Positions 4,651 to 41,542 of a DNA stretch of 64,000 bases are shown here, piece by piece. The notes below the pieces were generated by a model. That model saw only the letters and a list, made by a program, of their open reading frames with translations, searched no databases and was not told where the DNA came from. Position 1 is the stretch's first letter. Every line of letters starts with the position of its first letter. The position numbers were made by a program, and so were the translations under genes. This stretch comes from Sinohyriopsis cumingii (taxonomy: Eukaryota; Mollusca; Bivalvia; Unionida; Unionidae): assembly GCA_028554795.2 (NCBI GenBank), contig CM068838.1:129801428-129865427 (forward strand). Direction: 5' to 3'.

Positions 4651-4685
<35 letters not shown>

Positions 4686-9071: not shown

Positions 9072-9392
9072 AGTAGTTAAGTGGGATACCTTAGCGACAA
9101 TGGGAATTAGCATTACAGACCCCCCCCCCCCGGGACTGTTTAGCGACTATGTAAATTTAACATGGAGAAAAACCCTGGGACTGTTTAGCGACTATGTAAA
9201 TTTAACATGGGAAGAACTCGTGGGACTGTATAGCGTCAAGGGAATTTAAACAGGGTGGGACTGTATAGCGTCAAGGGAAATTTAACATGGGTTTATTTTT
9301 AAAAAAAATAAAAAAATAAAAATAAAAAAGGGTAGGCAATTGAAAGTCGATCTCTTTTCGAGAGATGTGGGTGGCCCTGAAAAGGGCATTTG
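9072..9392 (+). repeat. Left TIR of Polinton 1
   Basis: Matches the reverse complement of 28174-28557. Starts AGTAGTTAAGTGGGATACC, passes a C11 run (9121-9131), and carries two full 45-bp units beginning GGGACTGTTTAGCGACTATG (9132-9176, 9177-9221) plus degenerate partial units. An A-rich block follows, and it ends in the histone-like downstream box and stem-loop. The right TIR has four full units, so the two arms differ by repeat copy number. Confidence 0.92.
9350..9387 (-). terminator. Histone-type 3' stem-loop + downstream box, copy 1
   Basis: On the minus strand a GCCCTTTTCAGGGC hairpin (9374-9387; 5-bp stem, outer pair lost) is followed by ACCCA and then, 13 nt after the 6-bp-equivalent stem, GAAAAGAGAT (9350-9359). 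The metazoan replication-dependent histone 3' signal has exactly this architecture. It lies inside the left TIR and would end transcripts running outward on the minus strand. Confidence 0.82.
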
Positions 9393-9399
9393 ATTTTCT

Positions 9400-9792
9400 T
9401 CTTCTAATTTCTTCTATTTCTCTACCAGCTTCTTATTTCTGTCCTACACTCTTTCTCTTCTTTTCTTTCTTTTCTTCCTTCTTTTTCTCTTCTCTCTGCT
9501 TCTCCTCCTCTTCTTTCTTCCTCTTCTCATTTTCTTCTCCCTTTTCAATTTTCTCGTTCCATACTCTCATCCTTATCCTTTCCTCTTCATCCTCCTTCTC
9601 CTCCTTTTTTTTCTTTCATCAGAGCACTGATCATTTCCTTTACTTTTCTTAAATTGTTGATCTCCATCTTCACTCGATGGGGACTATAAGAATAGTGATC
9701 CTCGTTTATGTTAATAACATTTGCTCCATCATACCCAAATTGTCCAGGACGTCTTGCAATGTTTTCATTTTATCAAGTTGGTTTGAAGCCAT
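9400..9792 (-). pseudogene. Decayed coiled-coil gene, module a
   Basis: ATG at 9792 starts MASNQLDKMKTLQDVLDNLG, resembling the start of module b (MSSRLNKLMELQMHLEYAR). The frame stops after 28 codons. A shifted frame continues with MEINNLRKVKEMISALMKEK and then lysine/glutamate-rich codons (the CT-rich stretch 9400-9660 on the plus strand). It lies between a shared promoter block (9842-9950) and histone-like stem-loop copy 1. Function unknown. Confidence 0.6.
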
Positions 9793-9841
9793 CTTCTTTT
9801 TTATTCTTTGTAGAATGGTTTGAACGACGAATACTGTGGGT

Positions 9842-9950
9842 TCTTATAGTGAAAGCGCGGACGTGATGGAAAACATCTCCCAAAACATAAAATTGATATA
9901 CGTAGATCATAACCAAACAACGCGCGGACGTGAAGGAAAACATCCCCCTA
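9842..9950 (-). promoter_or_regulatory. Shared promoter block, module a
   Basis: Minus strand GGATGTTTTCCTTCACGTCC is repeated within the block (about 9921-9950 and again 9851-9880) and is followed by CTTTCACTATAAGAAC, a TATA box 50-60 bp upstream of the module a ATG. The same block recurs at 10842-10935 and, weaker, at 11640-11697. Confidence 0.65.
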
Positions 9951-10085
9951 CGTTTCTCATTTCATGTGATCTACTATCCACATACGTGAAGCAGCAATAA
10001 ACAAACCCCAAATCTACTATTCACACACGCAAAGCATTAAAATGGAACCCCTAATCTACTATCCACACAAACGTACGTCAGCGCT

Positions 10086-10093
10086 TACAAACA

Positions 10094-10158
<65 letters not shown>

Positions 10159-10169
10159 ACACACACAAG
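10086..10169. repeat. (AC)n microsatellite
   Basis: About 80 bp of almost uninterrupted AC dinucleotides inside Polinton 1. Open frames across it are artefacts. Confidence 0.95.
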
Positions 10170-10227
10170 AAAAAAGAGTGTTTATATTCACACTACTCTA
10201 CATACACACACAGGCAAATCGATTACT

Positions 10228-10266
10228 ATTTCTTTTCTAGAGATTGGGGTAGCCCTGAAAAGGGCT
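10228..10266 (-). terminator. Histone-type 3' stem-loop + downstream box, copy 2
   Basis: Minus strand AGCCCTTTTCAGGGCT hairpin (10251-10266, six paired bases, TTTC loop). ACCCC follows, then after 13 nt the GAAAAGAAAT box (10228-10237). The outer base pair is G-C in other copies but A-T here, so a compensatory change has preserved pairing. Confidence 0.85.
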
Positions 10267-10294
10267 GTTTGTTTTGAACTTCAGAGGCACCTGG

Positions 10295-10789
10295 TTAATG
10301 GCGACACCTTCCGGGTCTGGCACCACAGACACAACATCTACTCCAATCATGTGTCCAATTGACTGGAGTGGTTGGAAGAGCTGACGGGGGTTGAGTGGCT
10401 TCACTATCCCACTCCTCCGTTTGCGGAATAGTGAACACTTCTTGTTCCCTCTGTCTTCTATTCCACAGTCGAGGATGGACAACTGGCCTCCTTGCTTCCT
10501 GTGGGTCCTGTACTGGTTCTTGTTGTTGTTGTAACTGTGGTGCATCCATTGCCTGTGGAGGTTACATCACCCAGGGCTTCACATCACAACTTGGTCTCAT
10601 GAATAGGTGACACCTGATCTCTCTCTTTCTTTCCTCCTCTTCTTTCATTTTTCTCTCTTCCTCCTCCTGTTCTATCCTGGCTTCTTCCACAAGGGCCCCC
10701 GCAGCCAGCTCGTTCAGGAGGCATCTGGCATACTCCAGATGCATCTGAAGTTCCATTAATTTATTCAGTCTGCTGCTCATTCTACTCAT
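10295..10789 (-). pseudogene. Coiled-coil / Gln-rich protein, module b (frame broken)
   Basis: The ATG at 10789 lies about 60 bp after the TATA box in 10842-10935. The first frame encodes about 75 residues with a charged coiled coil (EEEERKMKEEEERKREI) and stops at 10562. A second frame, 10549-10295, encodes a Gln/Pro-rich tail. In a third frame 10395-10237 also looks protein-like (VDVVSVVPDPEGVAINQVPL), so more than one indel is likely. The 10295 stop is 29 bp before stem-loop copy 2. No known family recognised. Confidence 0.6.
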
Positions 10790-10841
10790 TTTTCTGTTGA
10801 TCAATCAAGAAGGTAGCTAGACTGCCGACCGATTTTTAATT

Positions 10842-10935
10842 TATAGTGAAAGCGCGGACGTGATGGAAAACATCCCCTAAAACAAAATTGATCTTACCTA
10901 GATCATGACCAAACAACGCGAGGACCTAAAAGAAA
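10842..10935 (-). promoter_or_regulatory. Shared promoter block, module b
   Basis: Minus strand GGATGTTTTCCATCACGTCC, then GCGCTTTCACTATAAATTAA (TATA box). An initiator-like GGCAGTCTAG follows about 30 bp on (near 10820). Near-identical to the block at 9842-9950, including the second half-copy. Confidence 0.68.
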
Positions 10936-11176
10936 CACTCACTCACTTTTTATACTACCAATTACTATTCTAAATATTTTTATTAAATCAACAATATACT
11001 ATCCACATATGCAAAGCAATCCAATCAAACCCCAAATCTACTCTCCACGCACGTCAAACAGCAAAAAAAAAACATGATCATTATACTATCCACACAAACA
11101 CATACACTCACACCACAAAAGAGTCAGTGTTTATATTCACACTACTCTACCTACACACATTGGCAAATCTATTGTT

Positions 11177-11215
11177 ATTTCTTTTCTAGAGTATTGGGTA
11201 GCCCTGAAAAGGGCT
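11177..11215 (-). terminator. Histone-type 3' stem-loop + downstream box, copy 3
   Basis: Minus strand AGCCCTTTTCAGGGCT hairpin (11200-11215), ACCCA, 13-nt spacer, GAAAAGAAAT (11177-11186). It begins 26 bp after the stop codon of the intact module c gene, the short 3' leader typical of histone mRNAs. Confidence 0.87.
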
Positions 11216-11241
11216 GTTGTTTTGTTTGCTATGGCAATCTT

Positions 11242-11604
11242 TTAGTTTCTAAGAATGCGACGTCCTCTGAGGATAGACTTTCTGACGATAGGTCTGCTTC
11301 TTCGGAAAGAGAAGAAGAACTCTTTGGTGTCGATACGACAATCGACAAAGCCTCTGTCAGGTTCAGGTTGCTGCTGCTGCTGCTGCTGCTGTTGTTGCTG
11401 TTGCTGCTGTCTCTGAAGTCTGTACTTCTCTGTCCATTCTTCTTTCTCCCTGTTCACTTCTTCTCTGAAGAGCTCTTCTATCAGGTCTTCAGTGACTTTT
11501 AGCATTCTCACATTCTCTATCTCTTCAGGCTTCGGTATCAGACTGTGTCTGACCCTATGCAAATTCACGTAGGCTTCGTTTAGCTTAGCTAGTTTGGAGC
11601 ACAT
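11242..11604 (-). CDS. Coiled-coil, Gln-rich small protein, module c
   Basis: Intact 120-residue frame. I place the start at ATG 11604 (MCSKLAKLNEAYVNLHR) because the promoter block with its TATA-like CTTTAAGAAC and initiator TGCAGTCTAAC lies at 11625-11697. An in-frame extension to 11733 would read through that promoter. The N-terminal half is helical and charged (EDLIEELFREEVNREKEEW). A CAG-encoded polyglutamine run follows (plus strand 11368-11412), then a basic C-terminus rich in Arg. Stem-loop copy 3 follows the stop. It belongs with modules a and b as the only uninterrupted member of this tandem family. Function unknown. Confidence 0.68.
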   Translation of the reverse strand: MCSKLAKLNEAYVNLHRVRHSLIPKPEEIENVRMLKVTEDLIEELFREEVNREKEEWTEKYRLQRQQQQQQQQQQQQQQPEPDRGFVDCRIDTKEFFFSFRRSRPIVRKSILRGRRILRN

Positions 11605-11639
11605 CTTCGTAGGAGGATGAGTCGACAATGGATGGTTAG

Positions 11640-11697
11640 ACTGCAAACTCCCCCAGTTCTTAAAGTCAAAGCTCGGACGTGAAGGAAAACATCCCTC
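11640..11697 (-). promoter_or_regulatory. Shared promoter block, module c
   Basis: Minus strand GGATGTTTTCCTTCACGTCC, then AGCTTTGACTTTAAGAAC and, near the start region, TGCAGTCTAACCATCC. A diverged third copy of the blocks at 9842-9950 and 10842-10935. Confidence 0.6.
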
Positions 11698-11739
11698 TAC
11701 GGTTTTCGAGCCGGAACGTTCAATGAGTGCCATGAGAGG

Positions 11740-11980
11740 GATAGTAAGAAGTCAAAGAGCATGAATCAACATTTCTATAGTCAAACAAAAGACAAAGGCA
11801 TTTTTTCAAAACACAACATATTTTAATTCAAAATCACTTAACACTAACCAACAACTCTAACATTTTTAACAATAACCTAACAATATAAAATCTAAAAAAA
11901 TTTTCAAATCATAAACATTTTTTTCAATTTACACATTATTTTGGACAGGGCTGACAACGTTGTGAATGAAATTGTGATTT
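11740..11980. other. AT-rich spacer in Polinton 1
   Basis: No ORF. A- and T-rich, between the protease gene end and module c promoter. It could hold the 3' end of the structural-gene transcripts, but no histone-like stem-loop is present. Confidence 0.5.
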
Positions 11981-12495
11981 TCACTGTTGGAAGTCATTAG
12001 GCCATTGATGGACACTACGTTTCCTAGCTTGAGACAAAAGATAAGCATAATGGTCACAAAACCATTGATCTACTTTCACATCGTTTCTTGAAGAAGAACG
12101 AGGATCAAAATGAGTCACTAAATGTTCTAAAGAATAGCCCAGACTGCGATGATGCAGAAAATACACACAGTACTGTCCACACACCAAGGAATCTGTGCCT
12201 TGTAATTTCACATTATTGAATCGGGTGGTCTGAGCATTTCTTCTCATAAAGTCAATGATATCGTCTTCCAAAGGGGCAATCCATACGAATCGAAATATTC
12301 CACACATCCTTCTTGAGGAAAGTAGACGGCTACCCAGTGGGTTCCTGGGAGATGACTGTCGTCCGTGTTGATCACATAAGCTAGATGGTCTTGAGGTTTG
12401 CGATGAGGGAGTTCATCTTTAGCACAGACGACAGGATTCCAAGAAGCCGTATACGAACTGTGGTTCAAAAGGTAATAAAGTTACCAGGTATCCAT
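11981..12495 (-). pseudogene. Adenain-like cysteine protease (broken)
   Basis: Capsid maturation protease of the adenovirus/Ulp1-like fold. Catalytic motifs are present in order: His in GTHWVAVYF (near 12340), Asp/Asn region YFDSYG (near 12290), and Cys in CGQYCVYFLHHR (near 12165). The likely ATG is 12495. An in-frame TAA lies four codons later (12481-12483), and a single-base frameshift just after YFDSYG moves the cysteine half to another frame. It lies next to the major capsid gene, the usual Polinton neighbourhood. Confidence 0.82.
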
Positions 12496-12508
12496 GTTTT
12501 TTTCTTCT

Positions 12509-13024
12509 TCACAGGTAATGATAAATCATCAATTCGATCCTGACCTTTTGCTTGAAAATGTCTGACAAGTAAAAGGCGTTTGGCTCCGACTTCTTATTCT
12601 GGTCAAAGAGAGATTCGATGCGACGGCGCTCCAGAGACGTTAATGGAGGAGAAGAATGTTTATCCAAGCCTTTATACCACTCGTTCAACACGAATTCTAT
12701 CTCGATGACACCCCAAGCTTTGTCCAGATATTCGTCCAATTTTTCTTCTTGGCTCAACATCAGACATTTGTCGTGTTGAATTTGACTGGGATGATCGTTG
12801 TGACATCCACAGCACTCTTCCTTGATCAATTCTTTCATTACATCTGTCAGGAATGAAGCAAAACAAGAGACTAAATGGGCTTCTTGTTCTGGCCATCTCT
12901 ACTTCATCATGATAACTTCTTCGTCTTGGGATTCTTCTTCTTCTTCTTCTTCTTCTTCCACGGTCTCCTCACATTCCATCTTCAAAGTTTCTCCACTAGG
13001 TAAAGAAGGATAACAGTCTTCCAT
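12509..13024 (-). pseudogene. Conserved Polinton-associated Cys-motif protein (one nonsense codon)
   Basis: The frame starts at ATG 13024, runs through a polyglutamate tract, meets TAG at 12899-12901, and continues in the same frame to 12509. The downstream part holds the cysteine/histidine motif CCGCHNDHPSQIQHDKC, which I recall from predicted proteins of other animal Polintons. No enzyme function known to me. An alternative is that translation simply starts at ATG 12838, giving an intact 109-residue protein. Confidence 0.6.
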
Positions 13025-13029
13025 GGCTT

Positions 13030-14336
13030 CTAATAGTCTAGAATGACTTCTCTCAAACTGTTGATTTCTATGGCATTGTCAAATTCTGCATACAGGATGA
13101 CGTTCACCGTCTCAGTTAGAGCTTCTGCAAACTGAAGTTCCACACGAATCTGACCAGATTTTATAGGGTGCAAATGTCCCTCGTCGCTGCCTTGGTCTGG
13201 AGTGAAATCAAAAGCCCACAAAGCATAGCCTCCTGCATAATACTCGTACGTAATACCGTGACTGGTGTTGGTTCCTAACTGTCCCGTGGCTTCGTACAGG
13301 GACAAGTACGACCTCAAGTAATTCTTCTTCTCAAAGTCAGGTTCGAAAGGTCGGGTACACAAGGTTTTGCCATCGCGACTGACTTCAATCTTGGACACTT
13401 TGTAATGTTTAAACTCAAAAGGATTTTGATCGTGGACTCCGTTGAAGGCTCTATTCTCGACCATACCAAGGATTAAACGTTTAGGTAACTGCCCTTGGAA
13501 CAGATGATCTTCGATCATGGATCGCTGTCCAGCAGGAATGGTGAAGGTTTTCACTTCCACGCGACGTATGGGATACTTGGCGGTCGTTCTGCTCAACGTC
13601 TGACTAATGTCGTTTCCCACTTTAGGTAACACTTCCACACGTTTTATGTAGAGTCTGGCTTCTTGGATGATGGTTTTGTAATTGTCACTAGCAGCCACTA
13701 AATGAAAAGCGACGCTGCTACGATTCAGTCTCAGGCGAACATTCACCCCATTCAGCAAATACTTTTCTTGTAACCACATGTCCAAATGCAAACGATCCAT
13801 CAGTTCTAAACTCTGTCCATTTATGATTTTGTCTCTTCGTTCTACAAAGCCCTCATTGTGGTCTTTTTTTGCATCAATTTCGGTTTGGTCAAACTTGTCT
13901 GCATCGTCAGTTTTCCATACCACACAAGCATTGAGATGAGTGTTCTTGGCGTCTATTCCGTACGTCAAGAGATTTTCCAGGTACGCTCGATAAGGGTAAG
14001 TATCCATGCTGCTACTGACCAGTTTGTTATTCAAGTACAAATCCACTCCGCTAAACAAGGAATGCATGAAATTGTTGACGGGAGCCACTGGCTCGTCATC
14101 TATAACACATCCTGTTTTATCAAGAACTTTGACTTTCAGGTACAAGTAACTGCTATTCAAATCGATGTAATCTTCGGGCTGTCCTTTGATCTCAAACTCG
14201 ATGGGAGCGGAATCCGTCAAAGAGGAGACAGGGTGAAATTCCACCCATTGGGATTCTTGCATGGTCATCATAGTGGGTGGATGGCAAACAGATCCAGTTC
14301 CCACTTGGAACAGGCGCAAGACTCTCGGTGCATCAT
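13030..14336 (-). pseudogene. Major capsid protein, double jelly roll (hexon-like), N-terminal frameshift
   Basis: About 429 residues in one frame matching the animal F54H12.2-like family that corresponds to Polinton major capsid proteins. Recognisable segments are WVEFHPVSSL (near 14240), PIEFEIKGQPEDYIDLNSSY and the C-terminal strand ILYAEFDNAIEINSL. The only ATG-started N-terminus (ATG 14336) is in another frame and stops at about 14270. A one-base deletion near 14278 accounts for both. Forms the trimeric hexon-like capsomer with the penton encoded at 14779-15711. Confidence 0.87.
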
Positions 14337-14350
14337 TTTGTTTTTGTGTC

Positions 14351-14775
14351 TCAATAATCGAAAACGTCTAAGTCTCGAACGGTTTTTCTTTTCTTTGCCT
14401 TTCTAGCTTTAGACGTGTGAAGTCTGGTGAAAGGGTATTTTCTTCGTCGTCTCTTTCTGCCTTGTCCTTGCTGAATGTCTGACTTGGTAGCGTGCAGGGC
14501 ATTTATAGGTGTTTCTCGTCGGCTCAAAAGGTCTTTGCCGGTTTGCAACAAGACATTTTTGCCTGCCCTCAAGAAGGCTTCTTTGGGTTTTGTTTGTCGA
14601 TGATGACATTTTGGAGAAATTCTTTGCCGTGTGTCAATGCCGCATCTTTCAAGGCGTGCAATCCGCGTGTCACCATCGGTTTCAAGACTGGGGCCACCGA
14701 ACGAAAGGCTGATTTTAACATATCTCCTAAACCGTGTCCTCGCTGTCGAGCAACGCCTCGGTACACTGGATACAT
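14351..14775 (-). pseudogene. GLGD minor capsid / core protein (frameshifted)
   Basis: Starts with MYPVYRGVARQRGHGLGD and an amphipathic/hydrophobic stretch. The GxGLGD motif recurs in the Polinton 2 protein at 38742-39185 (THGNGLGDAVTS). The first frame stops at 14569. The second frame continues to 14351 with a strongly basic tail (GRKRRRRK, KARKAKKRK), fitting a DNA-binding pX-like core peptide. One indel near 14590 separates them. Lies between penton and major capsid genes. Confidence 0.68.
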
Positions 14776-14778
14776 GAC

Positions 14779-15711
14779 TTACGAGTCGTGAGAGAATCGT
14801 TTTCGAAAATGGAGTTTCACTGTGACTTTCTCTTTGGTGAATGGAATATTTTGTCCCAGATCTCCTTTTATAGCAATGTTGACCGTGTCCAAATAAGATT
14901 TGCTGACGGGCAAATAGTGAGGATGTACAAATTCGCGGTGGACGTGATAAGTGTTTCCACCTTCCTCGTCAGTGACCGTGGCAGAATCCACTTTGAAAGG
15001 AATGACACGCAGTAACGGCACGGAGGTGTGTCCCACCACGTTGTACTCCACCACATCGGAGTATACAAACATCAAATTCAGTCCTTGGTTCAGTTCTACT
15101 GGGGTACGAAAGAACTTGCTAAAAGAATCGTTGTCGGAAATGACTGGCAATTCGTTTTTCTTCATCATGGCCATCCTCATGTCCATGTCCCCGCCCAACA
15201 TGTCAAACAATTCAGGACAAAATAAGAAAGACAACATTTTGTGCCCCTCAGGAAATTTCATCAGGAAGCGACGAGCTACTTTGTGGTACTCCAGGGTGAC
15301 ACTTTTTCTGACACTCTCCAAAGCTTTCAGAAACACGACATTAAACCTAGAGCTTATGGTGCTGACCAAATGTTGACAACTAAAATAATAGCCTGGGGGA
15401 ATGATCAAGCGATAGGTCGTCTTTTGAGTTTCTGGGTTATATATTTTGTGATCATATTTGACGTGGGTTTTCGAGTACTGTTGCATTTGCTCGTCATGAA
15501 CTTCCACTGAAAAAAAATTTTGATTGGGAAGGACATTGAGGACTTGAGTCGGGTGAATGATTTCTACCAAAGCCACTTCCCAATGGGCTTCGTGATCTAA
15601 TGGGATGGCCTGAGGTAATTTGGCCGTGTAACAGCACAACGTGTTATTGGGAAACACCTCCATGGAACTGTCACTGGGTAAGGTTAAGTAAAATTGGTTA
15701 GTGTGACTCAT
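14779..15711 (-). CDS. Penton-like minor capsid protein (single jelly roll)
   Basis: Intact 310 residues from ATG 15711. The N-terminal pattern FYLTLPS, VFPNNTLCCYTAKLP and HWEVALVEIIHP is the hallmark of Polinton penton proteins (vertex capsomer). It overlaps the preceding membrane-protein frame by four bases. No stop or frameshift, unlike the flanking capsid genes. Alternative identity is unlikely given gene order penton, minor capsid, major capsid. Confidence 0.85.
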   Translation of the reverse strand: MSHTNQFYLTLPSDSSMEVFPNNTLCCYTAKLPQAIPLDHEAHWEVALVEIIHPTQVLNVLPNQNFFSVEVHDEQMQQYSKTHVKYDHKIYNPETQKTTYRLIIPPGYYFSCQHLVSTISSRFNVVFLKALESVRKSVTLEYHKVARRFLMKFPEGHKMLSFLFCPELFDMLGGDMDMRMAMMKKNELPVISDNDSFSKFFRTPVELNQGLNLMFVYSDVVEYNVVGHTSVPLLRVIPFKVDSATVTDEEGGNTYHVHREFVHPHYLPVSKSYLDTVNIAIKGDLGQNIPFTKEKVTVKLHFRKRFSHDS

Positions 15712-16130
15712 AATTCCAGAGTTCTGTGGCTGTCCGAGGGGTTACTGGACGTCAGAGGCGTGTCTCCGCCCAAAATGGGGTTGTTGTTGTTGTTGTTGGA
15801 GTGGTGACTGGCACTGGCACTGGACACAAGGTTCCCGTGGTTCCCGTTCGAGGAGAATTTCAGGGAGGGATTAGGAAGCAGGTAACCGATGCAACTGCTC
15901 AATAAAATGGTCCACAATTGTTTGTCTCCTTGTTGCAAACTCAAATTGGCAATGGCTGCCCCGATGACACAATACACCACGAAGATTTGGCAGAAAAAGA
16001 CGATTTGCGTTTTAGGCACACGTTCTCCACACCACACCCACAAGGGTTGTTTTTGTAAATCTTGCAGAGAAGAACTAGGTGAAGGAGTGGTCGAAGTAGC
16101 TGCGTCTGTGTGAAAGGGTATGATGGTCAC
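15708..16130 (-). CDS. Small membrane protein (conserved in Polintons)
   Basis: About 140 codons with two adjacent hydrophobic segments (IVFFCQIFVVYCVIGAAIA and LWTILLSSCIGYLLP) and the conserved end GYLLPNPSLKF, then an Asn/Ser-rich tail. I recall this two-helix protein from other Polinton gene sets; role unknown, perhaps in a virion membrane or entry. No in-frame ATG exists upstream of the helices. The frame opens at GTG 16130 and a CTG near 16070 would suit the family, so the start codon may be lost. A TATA-like element (16135-16142) sits just upstream. Confidence 0.65.
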   Translation of the reverse strand: MTIIPFHTDAATSTTPSPSSSLQDLQKQPLWVWCGERVPKTQIVFFCQIFVVYCVIGAAIANLSLQQGDKQLWTILLSSCIGYLLPNPSLKFSSNGNHGNLVSSASASHHSNNNNNNPILGGDTPLTSSNPSDSHRTLEL

Positions 16131-17884
16131 TTCTTTTTATAGTCGATGACTTGCGAAGCGTCGATCCAAGAATCAAAACGGGGTGGATATCCTTTCCAAC
16201 GTACTTTGACTTCTTTGACACGTCGTTTGCCTACTTTACGGGTTCTGCGTTCGAGAATGCTTTCGATGTCGTACACGTCGTCTTCGTCTTTGGTGACACG
16301 TTGTAACTCGGGCAAATAAAACGTTCCTTTGAGTACTTCTCCGTTCATGTCTTCCAATTTATAGACGGCAGGATGACGGCCATGCACTCGTCCGGTGACA
16401 CGAAACAATTCGGTCGTCCAGTTAGGTAAGTAACCTTTGTCGAAAGTGCGTTTGGTTTTGCCAATGCGCACCCAATCTCCTACGGTCAACTCTCCACTTT
16501 TCTTGGGGACAGCCCTCGTCGGGGACGTACGAAACAGGCGCTCAAACACCAGTACATCGTTGTCGGGAGTCACTTCTTGCGGGGCACGTCCAATGCTTTG
16601 ATGGTAAGATTGGTTGTACGCTTGCACCAGGTGTGGTAAGATGTCGATGTACTTCAGAGTGTGGTGATGCGTAAAATATTTCCACATGCGTTCTTTCAAA
16701 GTTCCTTGAAAACGTTCCACGATGCTGGCTTTGGTTTCGGGATTCTCGGTGGTAAAAAAATGAATGTCACGTTTCTTTAATTCTTTTTGGAAAGCTTGGT
16801 TCAGAAATTCGGTGCCTTTGTCCGTTTGCCATCGAAGAGGGTGACGACCGCTTTGTTTCAACACTCGTTGCAGGGCTCGCACTAACTCGCTGCTCGATTT
16901 GGAAGTCAAGGGTACGACCCAGGCAAATTTGGAAAAGACGTCGACGACACAAAACAAATATTTGTAGCCACGATTGTAGCTGGCCAAATGAGAGACATCG
17001 GCTAAATCGGCTTGCCATTGATGATCGATGCCTTCCACTCGGGTGCGACTTCTGGAAAACTTGCGTCGAATGGGTTTGTGTAAAGTGTAGGTAGCTTGTT
17101 CTTGTAACCATCGTTGCACTTGAGGTAAACGGAGACTTTTCAGTCGAGTTTTGGCAGCACGATACAATTTTTGAACTCCTGCGTAACCTGCAGGATGGGA
17201 GGGATCGTAGTAAATGCTGGCGAACACTTTTTCCATTTTTTTGGTTTGTGTGTTAATAAGGACCCACTCTTGGAAGATGCTACTCTTTTTCTCTTGGGGT
17301 ATTTTCTTGGATTGTAATGCTTTCCGTGTGCGACCGATAATAGGTGCCGAGGAGGAGGAGGAGAATGCCTGAACAGGGGATATTTTTTCTTGTTTCACTT
17401 CTGTCTTCACCTTCTTTTTCTCTTCTGATGAAGAAGAGGTGGTCATCATCTTTTTAATCCATCCAATTCTGGAGGTAGGTGGTGTTGTTAACTTGCGTAC
17501 TTTTTCTGGTGGAGTTTGAAACCCTTCCTCTTCTTCTTCTCTTTTGTCTGTCTTGGTCACTGGTAGTAGTAGTGGTGGTGGTGGTGGTAGTGATGGTGCT
17601 GGACTTTTCATCAAGGTCTTAAAATCTTTCAGAGTGGGAAGAGCTGTTTCGTCTAAAGCTTTTTGGTGAAAGAGTTGCAGTCGTTGCAAGAGTTGACCGT
17701 ACTTTTGCGATTTTTCTGTTTCGGACAAATCGTGACGATCCATCAAGGTTTGCAATTCGTGTTGTAACTGGGACATTTCGCTCAAATGGGGATTGGGAGG
17801 TAAATGCGGGGTGCGTTGTTCTTGCCAACGATGGTATTCCATCCATCGTTTGTAAGGCACTAAAGCTAGTTTTCGTCCTTCCAT
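16127..17884 (-). CDS. DDE integrase with chromodomain, N-terminally fused
   Basis: Intact 585 residues. Retrovirus-like catalytic core: D293 in WQADLADV, D355 in QTDKGTEF, E390 in IVERFQG, spacing D-35-E. A chromodomain lies at about 537-580 (YDIESILERR, VRWKGYPPRFDSWID). Catalyses insertion of element ends and probably targets methyl-histone chromatin. Residues 1-95 (LALVPYKRW, LSETEKSQKYGQLLQRLQLF) look like a separate small Polinton protein joined by a low-complexity Pro/Ser/Glu linker (96-200). ATG 17884 follows a TATA element at 17930-17939. The last codons of the gene contain the TATA element of the next gene. Confidence 0.92.
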   Translation of the reverse strand: MEGRKLALVPYKRWMEYHRWQEQRTPHLPPNPHLSEMSQLQHELQTLMDRHDLSETEKSQKYGQLLQRLQLFHQKALDETALPTLKDFKTLMKSPAPSLPPPPPLLLPVTKTDKREEEEEGFQTPPEKVRKLTTPPTSRIGWIKKMMTTSSSSEEKKKVKTEVKQEKISPVQAFSSSSSAPIIGRTRKALQSKKIPQEKKSSIFQEWVLINTQTKKMEKVFASIYYDPSHPAGYAGVQKLYRAAKTRLKSLRLPQVQRWLQEQATYTLHKPIRRKFSRSRTRVEGIDHQWQADLADVSHLASYNRGYKYLFCVVDVFSKFAWVVPLTSKSSSELVRALQRVLKQSGRHPLRWQTDKGTEFLNQAFQKELKKRDIHFFTTENPETKASIVERFQGTLKERMWKYFTHHHTLKYIDILPHLVQAYNQSYHQSIGRAPQEVTPDNDVLVFERLFRTSPTRAVPKKSGELTVGDWVRIGKTKRTFDKGYLPNWTTELFRVTGRVHGRHPAVYKLEDMNGEVLKGTFYLPELQRVTKDEDDVYDIESILERRTRKVGKRRVKEVKVRWKGYPPRFDSWIDASQVIDYKKK

Positions 17885-17929
17885 GGGATGTCAAGGGTCG
17901 ATTCTGAGATCTTGGGACTCCAGAGGGCC

Positions 17930-17939
17930 TTTTTATCTT
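17930..17939 (-). promoter_or_regulatory. TATA element upstream of integrase
   Basis: Minus strand AAGATAAAAAGG about 48 bp before ATG 17884, overlapping the 3' end of the upstream gene. Equivalent elements lie at 16135-16142, 18387-18396, 19392-19401, 20165-20173 and 20966-20974. Confidence 0.55.
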
Positions 17940-19354: not shown

Positions 19355-19414
19355 GTTCACACTGTGTGAGACAGACGAAAAGGGTCTGAGGTTTTTATAG
19401 ATTTTTTGGTGCGG

Positions 19415-20119: not shown

Positions 20120-20203
20120 AGTGTCAGGAATGTCACTTGTGACACGAAAACAAACAAGACGAGAGTTTATATACTTTTTTTCAGAACACATTTATTGAAT
20201 GTT

Positions 20204-20735: not shown

Positions 20736-20956
20736 GTTGAATGGGGTGGTAAATACTGTTCGTAAAGAGTCCACAAGGAATCGGCTGGTAAACGAAATCC
20801 CAGAAAACAAGTCACTAAGACACACACCACTTGTCCACCCAAATTGAATGGATACAGTTCTTGTAATAATCGATGGTAATGATCCACGGTTTGAATATGG
20901 TCAATGAGTTCCTTCCACGGAATCTGTTGAATTACATACGACATAAGTCGTGGCAT
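20732..20956 (-). CDS. Hypothetical small protein
   Basis: 74 residues, intact, with a hydrophobic patch GGQVVCVLVTCFLGFRLP. The TATA-like element 20966-20974 is so close to ATG 20956 that the internal ATG 20944 may be the real start. It overlaps the 3' end of the upstream gene by 56 bases. Not recognised. Confidence 0.4.
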   Translation of the reverse strand: MPRLMSYVIQQIPWKELIDHIQTVDHYHRLLQELYPFNLGGQVVCVLVTCFLGFRLPADSLWTLYEQYLPPHST

Positions 20957-21419
20957 GGCAGCCTGTTTTTATAGTCTCTTTGTTTCGGAAACAATACACG
21001 TACTTTCTAGCCAGAGATCTTCGTTCTCCAGTGGGGAATCTAAAACTTGCATACTGTAACCTAAACTTCAAAGTTTGTTTAGATGTTTCCTCTTCCGAAA
21101 AGTAGATTCCACGTGAAATATGTTGGTAATCCTTTAACTTGTCTTCCTCAATGCGTTGCACTAGGTGAATCTCGAAGTAACCAAAATGATCAACACGTGG
21201 ATCATCGGGGGCCTGGAAGTATTGAACAAGGTCTGACCACTGAAACAATTTCTGACGAATCAGTTCTCTTATACCATTCAGGTACCAGTGGTTAAACATC
21301 TGGTGACGAAACGGATGCAATTGTTCTTTACGTTTCACTTGTATTTTGACCAGCTCTCGGTAAATGCGTTCTCTCAACTCCACAGGCAAAGCACGAATGT
21401 TCTCTTGTAAAGTATCCAT
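20901..21419 (-). CDS. F-box-like small protein, paralogue 2
   Basis: 172 residues from ATG 21419. The N-terminus IRALPVELRERIYRELVK fits the first helices of an F-box (LPxEl..rI...L), and the neighbour at 21441-21837 has IESLPKELQERIYKDVWQ at the same place. Later segments (QWSDLVQYF here, QWSEITHYV there) also pair, so the two are tandem paralogues. A role in ubiquitin ligase recruitment is only an inference from the short motif. Confidence 0.5.
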   Translation of the reverse strand: MDTLQENIRALPVELRERIYRELVKIQVKRKEQLHPFRHQMFNHWYLNGIRELIRQKLFQWSDLVQYFQAPDDPRVDHFGYFEIHLVQRIEEDKLKDYQHISRGIYFSEEETSKQTLKFRLQYASFRFPTGERRSLARKYVYCFRNKETIKTGCHATTYVVCNSTDSVEGTH

Positions 21420-21440
21420 GAATAGGTCAGTCCGTACAAT

Positions 21441-21837
21441 TCACAATCTTCTCCTAGAGCAAAAGTAATCCACATAGTGAGTAATTTCTGACCACTGCCG
21501 TTCAGGGTAACGTCCAAGAATGTCACTGAACTCTTTTGATGTAAACGGTCTAGAGTGATATAATAGGACGAATGCACACTTGACCCAAAGAAATCTAACA
21601 CACTGGTTGACTTTCTTTACTTTCCTCTTATGAATTTCTCGACACAAAAGTTCTACAGTGACCCATTGAGATTTCACTCTGGCAAACCCCTGCCTGCCAA
21701 ACGTCTTTGTAAATCCTCTCTTGCAGTTCTTTAGGTAATGATTCAATATCGTTTTTGAAATGAAGTTTAAATACTGGTCTCGGTGATGTCCAACATTTGA
21801 CTCCTAACCAATCTGGTTTCTTCTTCGTCAACGACAT
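21441..21837 (-). pseudogene. F-box-like small protein, paralogue 1 (frameshifted)
   Basis: ATG 21837. The first frame runs to 21628 and contains the LPKELQERIY motif. The second frame (to 21441) continues with QWVTVELLCREIHKRKVKK and GRYPERQWSEITHYVDYF. A single indel near 21675 joins them. Paralogue of the gene at 20901-21419. Confidence 0.48.
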
Positions 21838-21848
21838 GGTAAGTTACT

Positions 21849-22223
21849 TCAATGTCTCGGTCCCACTAAAGGTAAGTAATGACAATTCGGTGACCATCGA
21901 GCATGTTCTACGTAGGCCGAATCTTGCGGTTCCCAGTGGTGAAGTGAATCTTTGTAGATACATAGGTCCATTCGTAACTTCAGTCCGCAAGCGAAACACT
22001 GTACTTCGTATCCCAATCCTGACTCAGGTCCCAAGTAGACAAATCCTGTTCTAGCTAAAATATGCGAAGAAGGTAATCCTTTCCTATCCGTAGGCCATGC
22101 TTGAAACGTGTCCAATCGACGGGCACAATCACAATAGTCAGGCAAGAAAACCGGAAAATGGTAGGGTTTGAACTTGGAGTTCTCATCGGGTTTCTCACTC
22201 GATTCTTGCTGTGGCGAAGTCAT
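21849..22223 (-). CDS. BIR-domain (IAP-like) protein
   Basis: 124 residues, intact. A single BIR: R36 and TFxxWP, LARTGFVYLG, CFACG (C76, C79), EHARWSPNC (H107, C114), the zinc ligand set of inhibitor-of-apoptosis proteins. The C79-H107 gap is about 11 residues longer than canonical, with the extra segment in RMDLCIYKDSLHHW. No RING or second BIR. In viruses such proteins can limit host cell death; here that function is inferred only. It lies immediately after the polymerase gene (23-bp gap). Confidence 0.88.
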   Translation of the reverse strand: MTSPQQESSEKPDENSKFKPYHFPVFLPDYCDCARRLDTFQAWPTDRKGLPSSHILARTGFVYLGPESGLGYEVQCFACGLKLRMDLCIYKDSLHHWEPQDSAYVEHARWSPNCHYLPLVGPRH

Positions 22224-22246
22224 CCTTCTGGTGGGTGGCTATCCGC

Positions 22247-25200
22247 TTACAACCAATGTTTTATACCAACATATCCATACGGCAAAGTAAAGTGGTTGGG
22301 CAGTCGCACTCGCTTCTTGTACATGATTTGATAGACTTTTTCCAAGGGCCGACTGACGATGTGGTGAGTGGGTAAACGTACAATCTTGTTGGGTATCAAC
22401 CCACCTATAAAGGTGGTCACTTTAAAGTGTTCATCCTCTCCCGATTGCAAGGCTTCTTTCAATACCCCAAAGTTGACCACACGACTGGTACGATAAGTCA
22501 GAGTCAATCCTTTCACTTTACACTGCGTGTGCACTTCTCCTTGTGGGTCCCGGTATTCGTAGCCGTAATTTTTTGGACCGCCACTGACGAAACTTAGCAT
22601 CTTGTCGTCGGGATGCTCGTCTGTCCAGGCTCCTAAACGGTCTCCTTCGATGTCAGGGTGCTGTTGACTCGGGTGCTGGATGTAAATGCAACTGTCCGTG
22701 TCAAAGTACAGGACGCGTTCCCTTAACAGTTCTAAAGCTTCGTACAATTTTAAGCGAGCATGAGCTGTCACGTAAGCCGTAATGATGACATTTCCAAAAG
22801 GGTCGTCTTGTACAAAGTCCAGATCTTCTTCGTAATTGACAAAGATTAGATCCTCGCGAACGACGTCCACGTGTTTCATGAATTTGGTTTTGTCGTGAAT
22901 CATCTGGAAGTAGCGGGAAGGTTCGGTCAAATATTCCGTCTTGGGTAAACACGGTCGTTGTGCCATTTTACCCCACAAACAATTTAACATCACTTTGGCA
23001 AACGATCGCCTGCCTTCGTTTTTCTCGATGTGATGTAAAAGGATACCTTCTTGTGCCCAGTATTTCTCTTTGAATGTCTTTTGGTCTTCATGAGTGTGAC
23101 ACCAGGACGGATAGCCGCTGGCTTCTTGTTTCAGTTTCAAAAAGGCATCCACGTAGTCGGCGAAAATGCCTTTCTGCGTGGGGTCACCGTTGTGGTATTG
23201 TTGTGTCTTGGGAAAGTGGCAAATTTCGTACACTTCTAACAGTTGATATCCCATGTCCAGAGCTTTGAACAATTCTACGCTGACCCACGTCCCCGTCAAG
23301 GCACGTTCTTCCTGGGTGTGCTGACAAGGCTGATCTTGGTTGCACGTTTCGGTACAAGTACGGCACAAAGGAAACATCAGTTTGCCTTGGCAATGGTGAG
23401 GTAAGACGGGGTGGTACAAGTCCTTGGGAGGCAAAACTTTGCACCTGATCAAGCCTTCGTATTGTCGAATGTTTTTCAGGTCGATGTGTTCCGTCAGCAA
23501 TTGCGGCTGCCCTGCAGGAAAGTGACAATATTTGCACACGTAGGGATACAGCGAACACACGTCCAAGTATTTGATTTATTCTCCTTTCTCTTCGTCGGCT
23601 TGGTACAGCAAACAGTGGCATTGGTCCTTCCTCCGTACAAACTGTCCCTCGGGTTCAGGGGGTCCATGAACTGGTAACTTTCCACGAGGCGTTTAAATTC
23701 GGGATCGGTTTTCAAACGGTGATCGTATTCGTGTTCCCACATTTCCACCACTTGGTATCCTTGCTGTTCTAACTTTAGGCGTCGCTGACAAGTGGCCTGA
23801 TACAGGTCTTCCATGGTTCGTTGTAAAAACTGATTTTTAGTGTCACGATCAGGGTGGCAGACGGGACATCCGTGAAATAAGCAACCGTTAAACTCGTACA
23901 CGATCTTGGGGTTTTCTAAGCCCAGCCATCGACCGAATACGTTCCGATGGTCTTTTCGCCCCCTCCGTTGCGGGGATGCTGAATCCATTTGTCTTCCTTG
24001 TCGCACAAGTAATGTAACCAGGGTAGGGCTTTGACCGAGTATTGACGTTTGACGTAGTTGGTCGTTTGAGGGCTGATGACAGCTACGGTGTTTTCAGGCA
24101 TGAATCGTTGCCGGTACACTAAGGAACACGCTTTGGCAATGGTGCAAGCTTCTTTCAAAGGATCGACCCCTCCGTGTTCCATGAACAGTTCTCGAAATTT
24201 TCCACAGCAACGTCGTAAAATGTCCACGTCGGAACGACAATACTTTAGCATTTCGTCCTGAAAGTCGAAAGGCTCCGAGGCGTGAGCCTGATATCAAGTG
24301 TAGAAAGCTTCTCGTTGTTCGGTACACATGTTGTCGGGGTCGTAATAGTGAGCCTCAGGTAAATGGGGTAGAACGGCGTGTTGATTGGCTTCCGTATTGA
24401 AAAAGTGTGGAAAGTAACCTTTAGCCATTTCTGTCATTCCAAACGTTTTAGGCATTCGGCTCAAAGGCATGGCCAAGTAACTCATCGAATCTTTAAACTG
24501 TACTTGTCCCACTTGCATGAAAATGATTTTGGCTCCGTTCAAAGTGACTTTAGGACGTTCGGTGCCTTGTTCCGTATAGTATCTCAAAAGAAACTGTCCA
24601 TCGTATCCGGAGAAATTGTGAGCCATCACCGTGGCATGACGATGACAATCTCCGTAACGTTCGATGTCCTGTTGGTTCCACGTCTTGTCGATGGGGTCTA
24701 AGACCCATTGGGCAAAATCGGCTAACGTGTTCGGTCCTCGAAAGATTTTTTCACGCCCTCCGGGAATCTTACTGCAGTGAGGGCAATGACTGAAGATAGG
24801 TTCTTGAATGCACTTCTCGCACGCTCGATGAGCCACGCAGAAATTAGGAATGTGAATACAGGTCTCTTGCATGCATTCGAAATCGAAAAAGATGAAATTG
24901 ACTTTCTTCTTGTGACCGTCCTCTTTCTCTGGTGGGGGTTGGTATTTTTGCACGTAGCATTGGTGTTCCAAGTCCACGATGTGGTGACAAATGTGACATT
25001 TTTTCTTTCCTGAACATACGTGTGCCTTGGCATTATTGGTACGTATGCCTTGGCCACAAGTAGGGCACAATCTCAGCAGTTGACAAGCACATTTATGCTG
25101 TGAACCTTGCGTCTTCAAATGTTTTTGGTAACAGGTAGGGCTGAAAAACGTGCGCAGACAAGTTGAACAAGGCACTGGTCCTTCGCTCAGACAGGGTGGA

Positions 25201-26294
25201 GAGGCCAAACATCCTGAGCATTTCAATCCGCAATGTTTGTGTTGCTCTCGATTATTATAACCATGGTCATATTTCTCACAGTAATAACCGTATCCCAGGA
25301 ATGCAGTGATACCGGTAATGGTATCGAAATGGTCATCGTGATAATAGACATGAATGTATTTTCCGTCCTTAAAGTCTTGGCCTCGAAACAACAGAGGCCC
25401 ACGCACTTCTTGAGGGTGTACTTTCAAGGTGTAGCGTGGAGCTAGGACATCTTGCAATTTTTGCATTTCAGGAATGCCACAGGGTGTGTCTTTGGATAGG
25501 TCAGCTTGTTGCAACAGGAGTTCTTCTTCGTTTCGTTGTTTGGCTCGGTCCGATCGTTGAATAGTTTTCCAGGTTCTTTTCCATTCTACCGTGTCGTTAT
25601 TGTTGGCATAGGTTCGTCCCACCACGATGGCTCGGGCTAAGCACATCTGGTCTTGAGAATTGTGAATTTGGACGAGACTCTTTTTGGTGCTGCGAAGGTC
25701 GTTCACCAGTAACACCTTATTGCGTCCAGTTCCTTGAGGAGGAGAGAGGTGGGTCATGTCGAGTGTGGCTTTTCCATCGGTGATGTCAAACTGGTCATTG
25801 GATTGTTGCACGTGTTGAATCTTGTCCATGACTTTGGAAGCGGTCAATTCTGCAGGGGTGCTAAACTCGATCCAAACAGGGGATTTCAAACCGTCGTGTT
25901 GTATGGAGAGTCTCAAGCGATCGTCTTCTTTGGGTTGACATTGTCGCTTGAGTGTGGTGAGCAAAGAATCCCACACCCCAGTGATGAACCCTTCTGCTTT
26001 CTCTAACGGTACTTCGGACTTGAAATCTTTAAACTTCACCGTGTATTTGTAAGCCGTGGTTCAAAATTTTCTAGAGGAGCGCTTTTCCGTCTCTCGAATG
26101 GAATAGTATTTTTCAGGGTTGACTAAGGGTGGTGAACTTTGTTTAGAGGGTTCGGATTCTGGTTCTCTCATGTCCTCTTCAAAATCACTGGCATGAATTT
26201 GTGCCAAGACTTCAGCCCTGGTACGAGGCGATAGATCACGTTTCTGCCTCTTACTTTCTTCGTCTTTCTTCTTGAATGAATAGGATCGTTTCAT
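22247..26294 (-). pseudogene. Protein-primed type DNA polymerase B (multiply broken)
   Basis: Polinton replicative polymerase. Exonuclease motifs: FDFECM (near 24880), NFSGYDGQF (near 24610), YCRSDVDIL (near 24230). Polymerase motifs: DVCSLYPYV (near 23550), KVMLNCLWGKM (near 22980), LYFDTDSCIYI (near 22700). A Cys-rich region lies at about 24950-25250. Lesions: TGA at 26061-26063, TGA at 24294-24296, a frameshift near 23930, a frameshift near 23610 and TAA near 23575. The 26294-26064 segment, a separate basic ORF at first sight, is in frame with the rest and is the polymerase N-terminus. Confidence 0.93.
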
Positions 26295-26428
26295 CTTGAG
26301 TGAAAAAAGTCAAATGACTAAAATTTAAACACCATGGACTAATTTATAGTCCTAGCAGACCAGCGTATATAAAAGGGTGTGTGTCTTGTCCTTTCACTAT
26401 TCATTTCACTCTCAAACCGAGCACAACG
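26295..26428. promoter_or_regulatory. Divergent promoter between polymerase and CCHC gene
   Basis: The plus side has TATATAAAAGGG (26365-26376) 54 bp before ATG 26429, with CACTATTCATTTCACTCTC downstream. The minus side has CTATAAATT (near 26341-26349) about 50 bp before ATG 26294. A short shared control region for genes facing opposite ways. Confidence 0.6.
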
Positions 26429-26765
26429 ATGGAAGAGACTACCCAGATGGAACGTTTCATCAGAGCTTTGCGAAGGGTCATTAGAAAATTTTCTTCAGAC
26501 CAGCCGACGGACTACTCTCCTTCCTTTCGAGATAAAAGTGAAGATACTTGCTATATCTGTCAGAAGAAAGGGCATTGGTCTTCAGAGTGTCCAGACAGTC
26601 AAAAAAGAAAAACAGTGGTTAAAAGAGACAAAAGTCAAAAATACCTGTTATTATTGTCAAGAAAAAGGACATTGGTCTCCAGATTGCCCAAAAAAGAAAC
26701 AAGAGGAGTCAGAAGAAGAGAGGGATTCTTCAAAGGAAGAAGAAGAGGAGGAAGATAGCAGATAG
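26429..26765 (+). pseudogene. Double CCHC zinc-knuckle protein (frameshifted)
   Basis: From ATG 26429 the first frame encodes a knuckle CYICQKKGHWSSEC. A second, near-duplicate knuckle CYYCQEKGHWSPDC lies in the next frame, followed by a Glu/Ser-rich acidic tail ending at 26765. An indel in the A-rich stretch 26606-26645 separates them. Each knuckle is C-x2-C-x4-H-x4-C, implying single-stranded nucleic-acid binding. The only sizeable plus-strand gene of Polinton 1 other than the small ORF near the right TIR. Confidence 0.72.
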
Positions 26766-27093
26766 GTGAAGAAAAAGACACAGGAGAAGAGAAGAAGAAG
26801 GGAAGAAAGTATAGGAGGAAGAGGAGGAAAAGACTGTGACGGTGAAGAAATTAAAAAAACAGAGAGAGTAAAAAAAAGAAACAGAAGAAGTGAATGTACT
26901 TTTTAAAGTGCTTTGTTGCGAATTGTGAATTGGATTGTAACTATTGATAAAAGAATAAATTAGGTATAAAAAAGGTAAGTGTCTTTGGGTTTTGATTTTA
27001 AAATAAGAACGTACACTCACGCACTCATACACAGACACGTACTATAGGGGGTAAAATGGTTTTTTTTTTGAGTTATTGGCAATTGAAAAGTGT
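26766..27093. other. A-rich spacer
   Basis: Purine-rich continuation of the CCHC gene 3' region, with AATAAA near 26952 as a possible plus-strand poly(A) signal. No further gene seen. Confidence 0.45.
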
Positions 27094-27132
27094 ATCTCTT
27101 TTCTAGAGACGTGGGTGGCCCTGAAAAGGGCC
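27094..27132 (-). terminator. Histone-type 3' stem-loop + downstream box, copy 4
   Basis: Minus strand AAAAGGCCCTTTTCAGGGCC hairpin (27117-27132, perfect 6-bp stem, TTTC loop), ACCCA, 13-nt spacer, GAAAAGAGAT (27094-27103). Begins 21 bp after the stop of the gene at 27154-27707. Matches the metazoan histone consensus at every stem-loop position. Confidence 0.88.
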
Positions 27133-27153
27133 TTTTTTGGTGTAGGGGTGAGT

Positions 27154-27707
27154 TTAAGCAATCAACTTTAACTGTCTTAAGCCTTTGCCACGGCCGAGGC
27201 CTACTTCTGATGATAATGATTTGGTTGAAATCACTAAGGGTGGTACGGTAGGCTCGGTCACAGGGTTGGTGTGTTTATCTCGGGAAGGTCGTATTCTCTT
27301 CGGTCGTAATAAAGAAGTCTGATACATTTGTTTCAGACTTCTTAACTCCGCTAAAATGTCCAACAGTACCGTGACGGTTTGACTTTCACCCTCTTGTTTC
27401 TTTGCTGCTACTTCTTCTTCTTCTTGTTTTTTTCTTACCTCTTCTTCTTGTTGCTGTTGCTTAGGAGAAAAGCTTGTTCCGCTTCCTTTTGTCGTTGTAT
27501 AAATTTCTCCAATTCTTCTTTCTGTCTCTGTCTAAAATTCTCCACTTGTGGTAATGAAGAAGGAGACGAAGGTTCCGGAACAAATTCTTGCGAGGTAAGA
27601 AAATGCACAAAATCCCAATTTACCTCTTCTGAAAGTAAGTCCGGGTTCCCTTGGGCGGTCTCCACTGCTGGTACAACCCAATGGATCGTTTTCTGAGTTT
27701 CCGTCAT
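27154..27707 (-). pseudogene. Coiled-coil Gln/Glu-rich protein, module d (frameshifted)
   Basis: From ATG 27707 the first frame covers about 80 residues with a helical stretch (ENFRQRQKEELEKFIQRQK) and ends in a CAA/CAG/AAC-rich repeat. A second frame, open from about 27465, carries QQQQEEEVRKKQEEEEV and then LLDILAELRSLKQMYQ, ending with a glycine/lysine tail at 27154. One indel near 27475 explains the break. Same layout as modules a-c: TATA (near 27760), initiator-like TGCAGTCAATCG, charged coiled coil, stop, stem-loop. Not recognised by family. Confidence 0.6.
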
Positions 27708-27717
27708 GTTGAATCAC

Positions 27718-27929
27718 TGTCTCGCATCGATTGACTGCACACAGGCGCTAGCGAATCTATATAGACTACGTGACGTCACAGACTGTTCTCTTCGGATTGG
27801 ATGCGGACTGACTGAATTTTGTAACGTGTGTTTGGATTGGTCAATGAACTCAATCCATTTCAATCCTTCCTGCCCCCTATAAATAAGCGCAGTTCACTGC
27901 ATTGATTCACCTGTTCTCGGCGCCTCAAG
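27718..27929. promoter_or_regulatory. Divergent promoter with palindromic CRE
   Basis: Plus side: CTATAAATAAGCG at 27877-27889 about 50 bp before ATG 27930, with GCGCAGTTCACTG downstream. Minus side: CTATATAG near 27758-27765 with TGCAGTCAATCG. A perfect CRE/ATF palindrome TGACGTCA lies at 27771-27778. Both flanking genes end in histone-type stem-loops, so this region could coordinate the pair. Confidence 0.62.
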
Positions 27930-28094
27930 ATGTGGACCACAGTCGAATCATCCACCCTTGTTTCTTCAATGATGTTTAGGACGGACATGCTAATGTATGT
28001 CCGATCCAAGTGGACAGTTGTCCACAAGTCAGACACCAGTCTGTGGATACGAAGAGTGTACGTGGAGAGACATTTTGCCTCAAGAGGACACTGA
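27930..28094 (+). CDS. Small ORF (54 aa) ending in a histone-type 3' signal
   Basis: ATG 27930 to TGA 28092-28094, starting MWTTVESSTLVSSMMF and basic towards the end (WIRRVYVERHFASRGH). No homology recognised; the protein is supported mainly by context: a good TATA box 45-50 bp upstream and histone-type stem-loop copy 5 downstream at 28180. The transcript might instead be noncoding. Confidence 0.45.
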   Translation: MWTTVESSTLVSSMMFRTDMLMYVRSKWTVVHKSDTSLWIRRVYVERHFASRGH

Positions 28095-28140
28095 TTTATG
28101 GCCCTCGAGTAAGACGCAGCTTGAGGACAAGATGCCGCAG

Positions 28141-28162
28141 ATGCCCTTTATGTTAAGGGCAT
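28141..28162 (+). repeat. Hairpin upstream of stem-loop copy 5
   Basis: ATGCCCTT-TATGTT-AAGGGCAT, a perfect 8-bp stem 17 bp before the histone-like stem-loop. Role unknown. Confidence 0.6.
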
Positions 28163-28173
28163 ATTAACATAAA

Positions 28174-28557
28174 TCCAAAGGCCCTTTTCAGGGCCACCCA
28201 CATCTCTAGAAAAGAGATCGACTTTCAATTGCCTACCCTTTTTTATTTTTATTTTTTTATTTTTAAAAAAGAAAATCCCATGTTTAAATTCCCTTGACGC
28301 TATACAGTCCCACGAGTTCTTCCCATGTTAAATTTACATAGTCGCTAAATAGTCCCAGGGTTTTTCTCCATGTTAAATTTACATAGTCGCTAAACAGTCC
28401 CAGGGTTTTTCTCCATGTTAAATTTACATAGTCGCTAAACAGTCCCAGGGTTTTTCTCCATGTTAAATTTACATAGTCGCTAAACAGTCCCGGGGGGGGG
28501 GGGGCGGGATCTGTAATGCTAATTCCCATTGTCGCTAAGGTATCCCACTTAACTACT
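28174..28557 (-). repeat. Right TIR of Polinton 1
   Basis: Reverse complement of the left TIR. It contains four 45-bp units plus a partial unit (28293-28488) against two full units on the left, a G12 run (28489-28504) matching the left C run, and histone-type stem-loop copy 5 at its inner end. Ends GGTATCCCACTTAACTACT, followed by TSD TATAAC. Confidence 0.92.
28180..28218 (+). terminator. Histone-type 3' stem-loop + downstream box, copy 5
   Basis: Plus strand: AAAGGCCCTTTTCAGGGCC with stem 28180-28195, then ACCCA, 13-nt spacer and GAAAAGAGAT at 28209-28218. All stem-loop and flanking positions agree with the metazoan replication-dependent histone consensus. It sits inside the right TIR as the mirror of copy 1. 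Confidence 0.88.
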
Positions 28558-41538: not shown

Positions 41539-41542
41539 CATT

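Follow-up and report, generated by a model that had tools for sequence, protein, structure and literature searches.

Do genes of a virus-like transposable element end their mRNAs with the processing signal of histone genes? The question is raised by a window of 64,000 nucleotides from the bivalve Sinohyriopsis cumingii (assembly GCA_028554795.2, contig CM068838.1; coordinates below are those of this whole stretch), in which a Polinton (Maverick-type element; 9072..28557) carries five short hairpins, here called A to E, each with a purine-rich box downstream. An earlier reading of this DNA from its letters (the sequence-only reading) had claimed that these are SLBP/U7-type 3' processing signals on Polinton genes. 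The claim is supported by scores of the Rfam Histone3 model that lie above those of shuffled sequence and by the recurrence of the signal in a distant Polinton, L003; the processing itself we infer. We consider it very likely that small accessory genes in the terminal regions of this Polinton carry complete 3' signals of the replication-dependent-histone type, which would give SLBP/U7-processed, non-polyadenylated mRNAs.

Histone-type signals in the Polinton

All five hairpins were found at the positions, on the strands and with the letters that the sequence-only reading had reported. Hairpin A (9373..9388, minus strand; TGCCCTTTTCAGGGCC) points outward, has a mismatched outer pair and is accompanied by the purine box GAAAAGAGAT at 9350..9359 (minus strand). 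Hairpins B (10251..10266) and C (11200..11215), both on the minus strand, have the sequence AGCCCTTTTCAGGGCT and the purine box GAAAAGAAAT, located on the same strand at 10228..10237 and 11177..11186, respectively. Hairpins D (27117..27132, minus strand) and E (28180..28195, plus strand, pointing outward) have the sequence GGCCCTTTTCAGGGCC, with the box GAAAAGAGAT at 27094..27103 (minus strand) and 28209..28218 (plus strand). The consensus of the window copies consists of an A-rich flank, the hairpin (G/A)GCCCUUUUCAGGGC(C/U), ACCC, a 13-nt spacer and GAAAAGA(G/A)AU, and the previously described combination of ACCC(A/C), a constant 13-nt spacer and a GAAAAGA(G/A)AT box is present in five of five copies.

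A covariance-model search of the window with Histone3 (RF00032; gathering cut-off 34 bits), which the sequence-only reading had named as a check, matched all five hairpins with E-values from 1e-8 to 0.0026. Two of the five exceeded the cut-off, namely E (28175-28220, plus strand; 41.2 bits, E-value 1e-8) and D (27093-27137, minus strand; 38.3 bits, E-value 1.1e-7), and the minus-strand matches for C (11175-11220), B (10225-10271) and A (9348-9393) reached 31.2, 30.8 and 26.7 bits, respectively. No sixth match was found at E≤10 across the 64-kb window. When the five copies were aligned with the one from L003, 35 of the 36 pair cells of the 6-bp stem, which closes a 4-nt loop, were standard pairs, the outer pair of A being the exception. 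The alignment from hairpin to box is gapless, the spacing is identical in all six copies, and the G-C second stem pair as well as the AC(C) flank are invariant.

Scores no better than those of shuffled sequence had been set beforehand as a ground for rejecting the claim, and the Rfam model scores far exceed the shuffle expectation. A script scan for a hairpin with ACC, an A-rich flank and AAAAGA returned seven window matches, the five signals and two apparently fortuitous ones (34835 and 55196; 5 pairs, unrelated stems); the same strict scan of 600 dinucleotide-shuffled windows gave 0.13 matches per window. A looser scan returned six window matches (the five signals and 41194) versus 0.37 per shuffled window (30 shuffles). 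Histone3 had no match in 140 kb from the same assembly (14 of 21 stretches of the 202 kb sampled), and the exact signal was absent from 2.9 million IMG/VR contigs. Eight IMG/VR stretches fitted a looser hairpin pattern; seven of them had neither AAAGAG nor AAAAGA within 40 nt downstream, and the sequence of the eighth, L016, stops 2 nt past the match.

The five window signals are, judging from the repeats in which they lie, not independent cases. The terminal inverted repeat (TIR) of the Polinton holds hairpin A (9373, minus strand) in one arm and hairpin E (28180, plus strand) in the other; the left arm (9072..9396, plus strand) and the right arm (28171..28557, minus strand) show 79% identity over 388 aligned columns (9072-9396 versus 28557-28171) and 92% in the hairpin segment. 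Hairpins B and C (10251/11200) sit in a 133-nt direct repeat with 84% identity, and there are therefore at most three signal lineages inside the window. An A-T for G-C exchange in the outer pair had been taken as a sign of selection on structure. The exchange is present in B and C, but it is a weaker sign than claimed, as it is probably a single event shared by duplication. Across the six copies the outer pair is G-C in three, A-U in two and mismatched in one, the other five pairs are constant, and 33 of 500 shuffles attained the observed covariation score; the covariation evidence is weak because the B/C pair is probably one event, A is mismatched and five of the six pairs do not vary. Copies A, D and E can also form a second hairpin that spans the purine box; as a conserved structure it was rejected, since its stem is disrupted in B, C and L003 and covariation is absent.

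Genes in front of the hairpins and a distant relative

The best case of a gene with such a 3' end is gene C (11242..11604, minus strand), an uninterrupted intronless frame for a 120-aa non-histone protein whose stop codon lies 26 nt before hairpin C. Its eight database relatives have the start MxSRLAKLNEAY in common, and seven of the eight have the basic C-terminus. A domain search recognised none in its product, with matches only at E-values of 0.015-0.068, and we regard gene C as real and non-histone. In its predicted model (mean predicted local distance difference test score, pLDDT, 71; predicted template modelling score, pTM, 0.43) there are two helices and a basic tail that is disordered, which gave no functional clue. 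Unit B has a reading frame of 84 aa (10295..10549, minus strand), with a further frame upstream (10562-10789), and unit D has an open frame of 125 codons (27157..27531, minus strand), with a 90-aa frame upstream in another frame (27435-27707). The stop-to-hairpin distance is 28 nt for B, 21 nt for D and 28 nt for L003. Unit A is ambiguous: its longest open frame, 60 codons at 9436..9615 (minus strand), ends 44 nt before hairpin A, alternative frames stop 33 and 55 nt before it, and the case for 9436..9615 as a gene, judged by its frame, is weak.

None of the tested frames of C, B and D or the L003 gene had a Pfam histone match, and no Histone3-type signal was matched at the core genes for capsid, integrase and family-B DNA polymerase (PolB). 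A promoter-like block, TTCC(A/T)TCACGTCCGCGCTTTCACTATAAG, lies at 11655..11687 (minus strand), with copies starting at 9871, 9938, 10868 and 11687. The shared block TTCC(A/T)TCACGTCC has four window copies (9838-11687), all in front of units A to C and none elsewhere in the window; three of the four continue into a TATA-like CTATAA/CTTTAA, and the block is a candidate common promoter. Units A to C are laid out like tandem histone genes, each with its own putative promoter, a short intronless frame, a short 3' untranslated region (UTR), a stem-loop and a purine element. The resemblance to the 3' end of replication-dependent histone mRNAs covers the stem-loop, the A-rich 5' flank, the ACC 3' flank, the purine element at a fixed distance, the short 3' UTR and the short intronless gene; unlike those mRNAs, the Polinton genes are accessory and non-histone. 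Histone genes of bivalves such as Lucina pectinata, as described in an excerpt of PMC6210712, have a palindromic stem-loop near the stop codon; just some of these genes were found to have a purine-rich element close to the palindrome. The Polinton signals resemble these genes in the stem-loop close to the stop codon and in the purine element, and differ from them in that the Lucina genes encode histones.

A single scan for capsid relatives provided seven relative loci (L001-L007), most of them partial, on contigs of bacterial assemblies, which we take to be stray eukaryotic DNA. In one of them, L003 (8.9 kb, titled as a Bacteroidia metagenome-assembled genome), Histone3 matched at 504-549 (minus strand) with 35.8 bits and an E-value of 1.1e-6, above the cut-off of 34. 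L003 shares only 33% identity with the window Polinton in the capsid, 34% in the integrase and 38% in PolB. Its hairpin follows the stop of an intact 89-aa C2H2 zinc-finger frame that differs from the window genes; the loop reads UAUC versus UUUC in the window copies, and the alignment runs without gaps through hairpin, spacer and purine box. Judged by these comparisons, L003 is independent support for the signal in a distant Polinton. A homologue search with its zinc-finger protein found none. L003 also encodes, at 1189-1695 (plus strand), a 168-aa homologue of the TATA-binding protein (TBP; E-values of 1.2e-27 for Pfam TBP and down to 7.1e-20 for TBPs in the PDB), a hint that this Polinton itself controls the initiation of transcription.

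Histone3 gave no match in L001, L002, L004 and L005 at E≤5, and in L006 and L007 there was none at the gathering threshold and none in the script scan. Searches of IMG/VR with six queries (the window capsid, an 18-member capsid alignment, a PolB pair alignment, a gene C alignment and, from L003, both the zinc-finger protein and the capsid) returned no Polinton. The sole IMG/VR locus returned, L008, is rich in tRNA genes, was not matched by Histone3 and was set aside. A second capsid alignment excludes L002, which has stops in frame, L004 and L005.

The carrier element and its surroundings

The assignment of 9072..28557 to the Polintons is based on its long TIRs and the 6-bp target-site duplication tataac on both sides (9066..9071 and 28558-28563), on its retroviral-like integrase (16127-17884; Pfam rve 4.1e-14 and Chromo 6.5e-07) and on two family-B polymerase pieces in separate frames (22247-23377 and 24294-25829; DNA_pol_B_2 4.5e-08 and 2.4e-06). 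The protein encoded at 13030-14271 had no match in Pfam and none among PDB sequences. However, its predicted fold (pTM 0.81) resembles capsids of virophages and nucleocytoplasmic large DNA viruses (NCLDV), with a best PDB E-value of 6.0e-16; the PDB fold matches are double-jelly-roll capsids of Sputnik, mavirus, iridovirus and Paramecium bursaria chlorella virus 1 (PBCV-1), and those among viral models are proteins of virophage, adomavirus, MELD virus and adintovirus. This predicted structure supports its identification as a double-jelly-roll major capsid protein and, with it, the Polinton assignment. Of the named entries among the best 120 of 948 capsid relatives, those of bivalves (Mercenaria, 52-53% identity) are the nearest. 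The frames at 11981-12307 and 14779-15711 we take, from gene order and appearance without a library match, to be a protease and a minor capsid protein. Further genes are one with a BIR (inhibitor-of-apoptosis) domain (21849-22223, minus strand; Pfam E-value 1.9e-16) and a CCHC zinc-knuckle frame (26429-26758, plus strand) on the strand opposite to most Polinton genes. Tandem repeats of about 45 nt lie within the TIRs (9099-9255 and 28278-28495), and the outermost TIR part contains GACAATGGG, which recurs in subterminal-looking repeats at the L003 end (L003:134-222).

In its TIRs, 6-bp target duplication, rve integrase with chromodomain, family-B polymerase and double-jelly-roll capsid, the element is like Polintons/Mavericks (adintovirus-like); unlike those in the papers found, it has histone-type 3' signals. 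A literature search under Polinton and adintovirus, which covered neither the synonym Maverick nor subscription papers and bioRxiv, found among the papers listed none linking Polintons with the histone stem-loop or the SLBP pathway, and we therefore regard the signal, though known in itself, as unreported in this setting.

A second Polinton-like element occupies 36831-51573, with TIRs that are 97.6% identical and the target duplication agtacg. It encodes a double-jelly-roll capsid domain (PF21738), a Pox_A32-type packaging ATPase and a weak rve match, and its capsid has no BLASTP-detectable similarity to that of the first Polinton. It is without a Histone3 signal, as there is no sixth match in the window. 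Repeats related to tRNA occur at 4652-4972, 34437-34695 and 53308-53647 (Rfam tRNA 30.3 bits at 53312-53383) and probably represent a tRNA-derived short interspersed nuclear element (SINE). A duplicated stretch (1374-3480 and 31337-33357; 68-74% identity) flanks the Polinton.

Alternatives and a possible use of the histone pathway

Several observations weigh against functional histone-type 3' ends on these genes. Three of the five window copies (A, B and C) score below the Rfam cut-off, and the outer pair of hairpin A is broken by a T/C mismatch. Units A, B and D lack a single clean frame, those of B and D being interrupted upstream, and hairpin E is preceded by short frames only, with no convincing same-strand gene upstream. 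The Polinton copy looks partly decayed because its PolB pieces are in separate frames, and it may therefore be silent. Absence from related elements, which had been named as a possible refutation, applies to six of the seven relative loci, mostly partial contigs, and not to L003; since L002 (21 kb) and L005 (5 kb past a protease-like gene) have no match though they extend well past their capsid genes, the signal is not universal.

We consider it unlikely that the signals are an inert relic, that is, a captured host histone 3' end spread by tandem duplication and TIR homogenisation and without present use. Such a relic would fit the fact that duplication relates the copies in at least two pairs and that copy A is degraded, with several frames broken. 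However, the far-diverged L003 retains the signal with its hairpin, flanks, spacing and purine box, and there it immediately follows another gene, whose frame is intact; a distance of 21-28 nt kept to the stops of different genes would be unexpected of a relic, and Pfam scans of the tested frames show no histone-like coding remnant. Elements acting at the DNA level or in replication of the termini, such as palindromes, packaging sites or sites of protein priming whose likeness to histone signals would be accidental, are a very improbable source: the location of copies A and E within the TIRs and the second hairpin foldable in A, D and E would suit them, whereas the copies B, C, D and that of L003 lie outside mapped TIRs or after genes, all copies are oriented with the preceding gene where one is recognisable, the match reaches the SLBP/U7-specific flanks with an E-value of 1e-8, and the second hairpin fails in B, C and L003. 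Chance similarity is scarcely credible. The script scan does pass two weak look-alikes at other window sites and 0.13 matches per shuffled window, but the full Histone3 model gives E-values of 1e-8 and 1.1e-7 for window copies and 1.1e-6 for that of L003, and these model scores already disfavour it.

If the terminal genes do carry SLBP/U7-type 3' ends, host SLBP would bind the hairpin, the U7 small nuclear ribonucleoprotein (snRNP) would pair with the purine box (boxed sequence GAAAAGAGAU) and CPSF73 would cut between the two. According to an excerpt of PMC7026596, U7 small nuclear RNA pairs with the downstream element, CPSF73 cleaves between stem-loop and element, and the CUCUUU of mouse U7 pairs with an AAAGAG core. 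This core is exact in four of the six copies (A, D, E and L003), and B and C have AAAGAA with one mismatch, the reference being mouse U7 and not that of the host. By analogy with the histone pathway, SLBP binding, a tail-less mRNA and S-phase-restricted expression would be expected: the mRNA, lacking poly(A), would have the hairpin as its end and would be stable and translated chiefly in S phase. Capsid, integrase and PolB genes presumably rely on ordinary 3' ends. Speculatively, the element might benefit by keeping in step with host replication or by evading control that depends on poly(A).

Slightly more likely than not is a broader interpretation, that more than one lineage of animal Polintons has taken over the histone 3'-end pathway to serve as a dedicated regulon for terminal accessory genes; these virus-derived, non-histone mRNAs would depend on SLBP and U7, and accessory, perhaps early or regulatory, expression would be coupled to host replication and histone locus bodies. 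Selection for poly(A) in RNA-seq would overlook such transcripts, which could partly account for their having gone unnoticed. If these signals are used, the hairpin end would no longer be exclusive to histone mRNAs, the Polinton genes would be naturally occurring substrates on which SLBP and U7 could be tested, and an integrated virus-like element would have a simple way, independent of poly(A) tails, to time the expression of its accessory genes to S phase.

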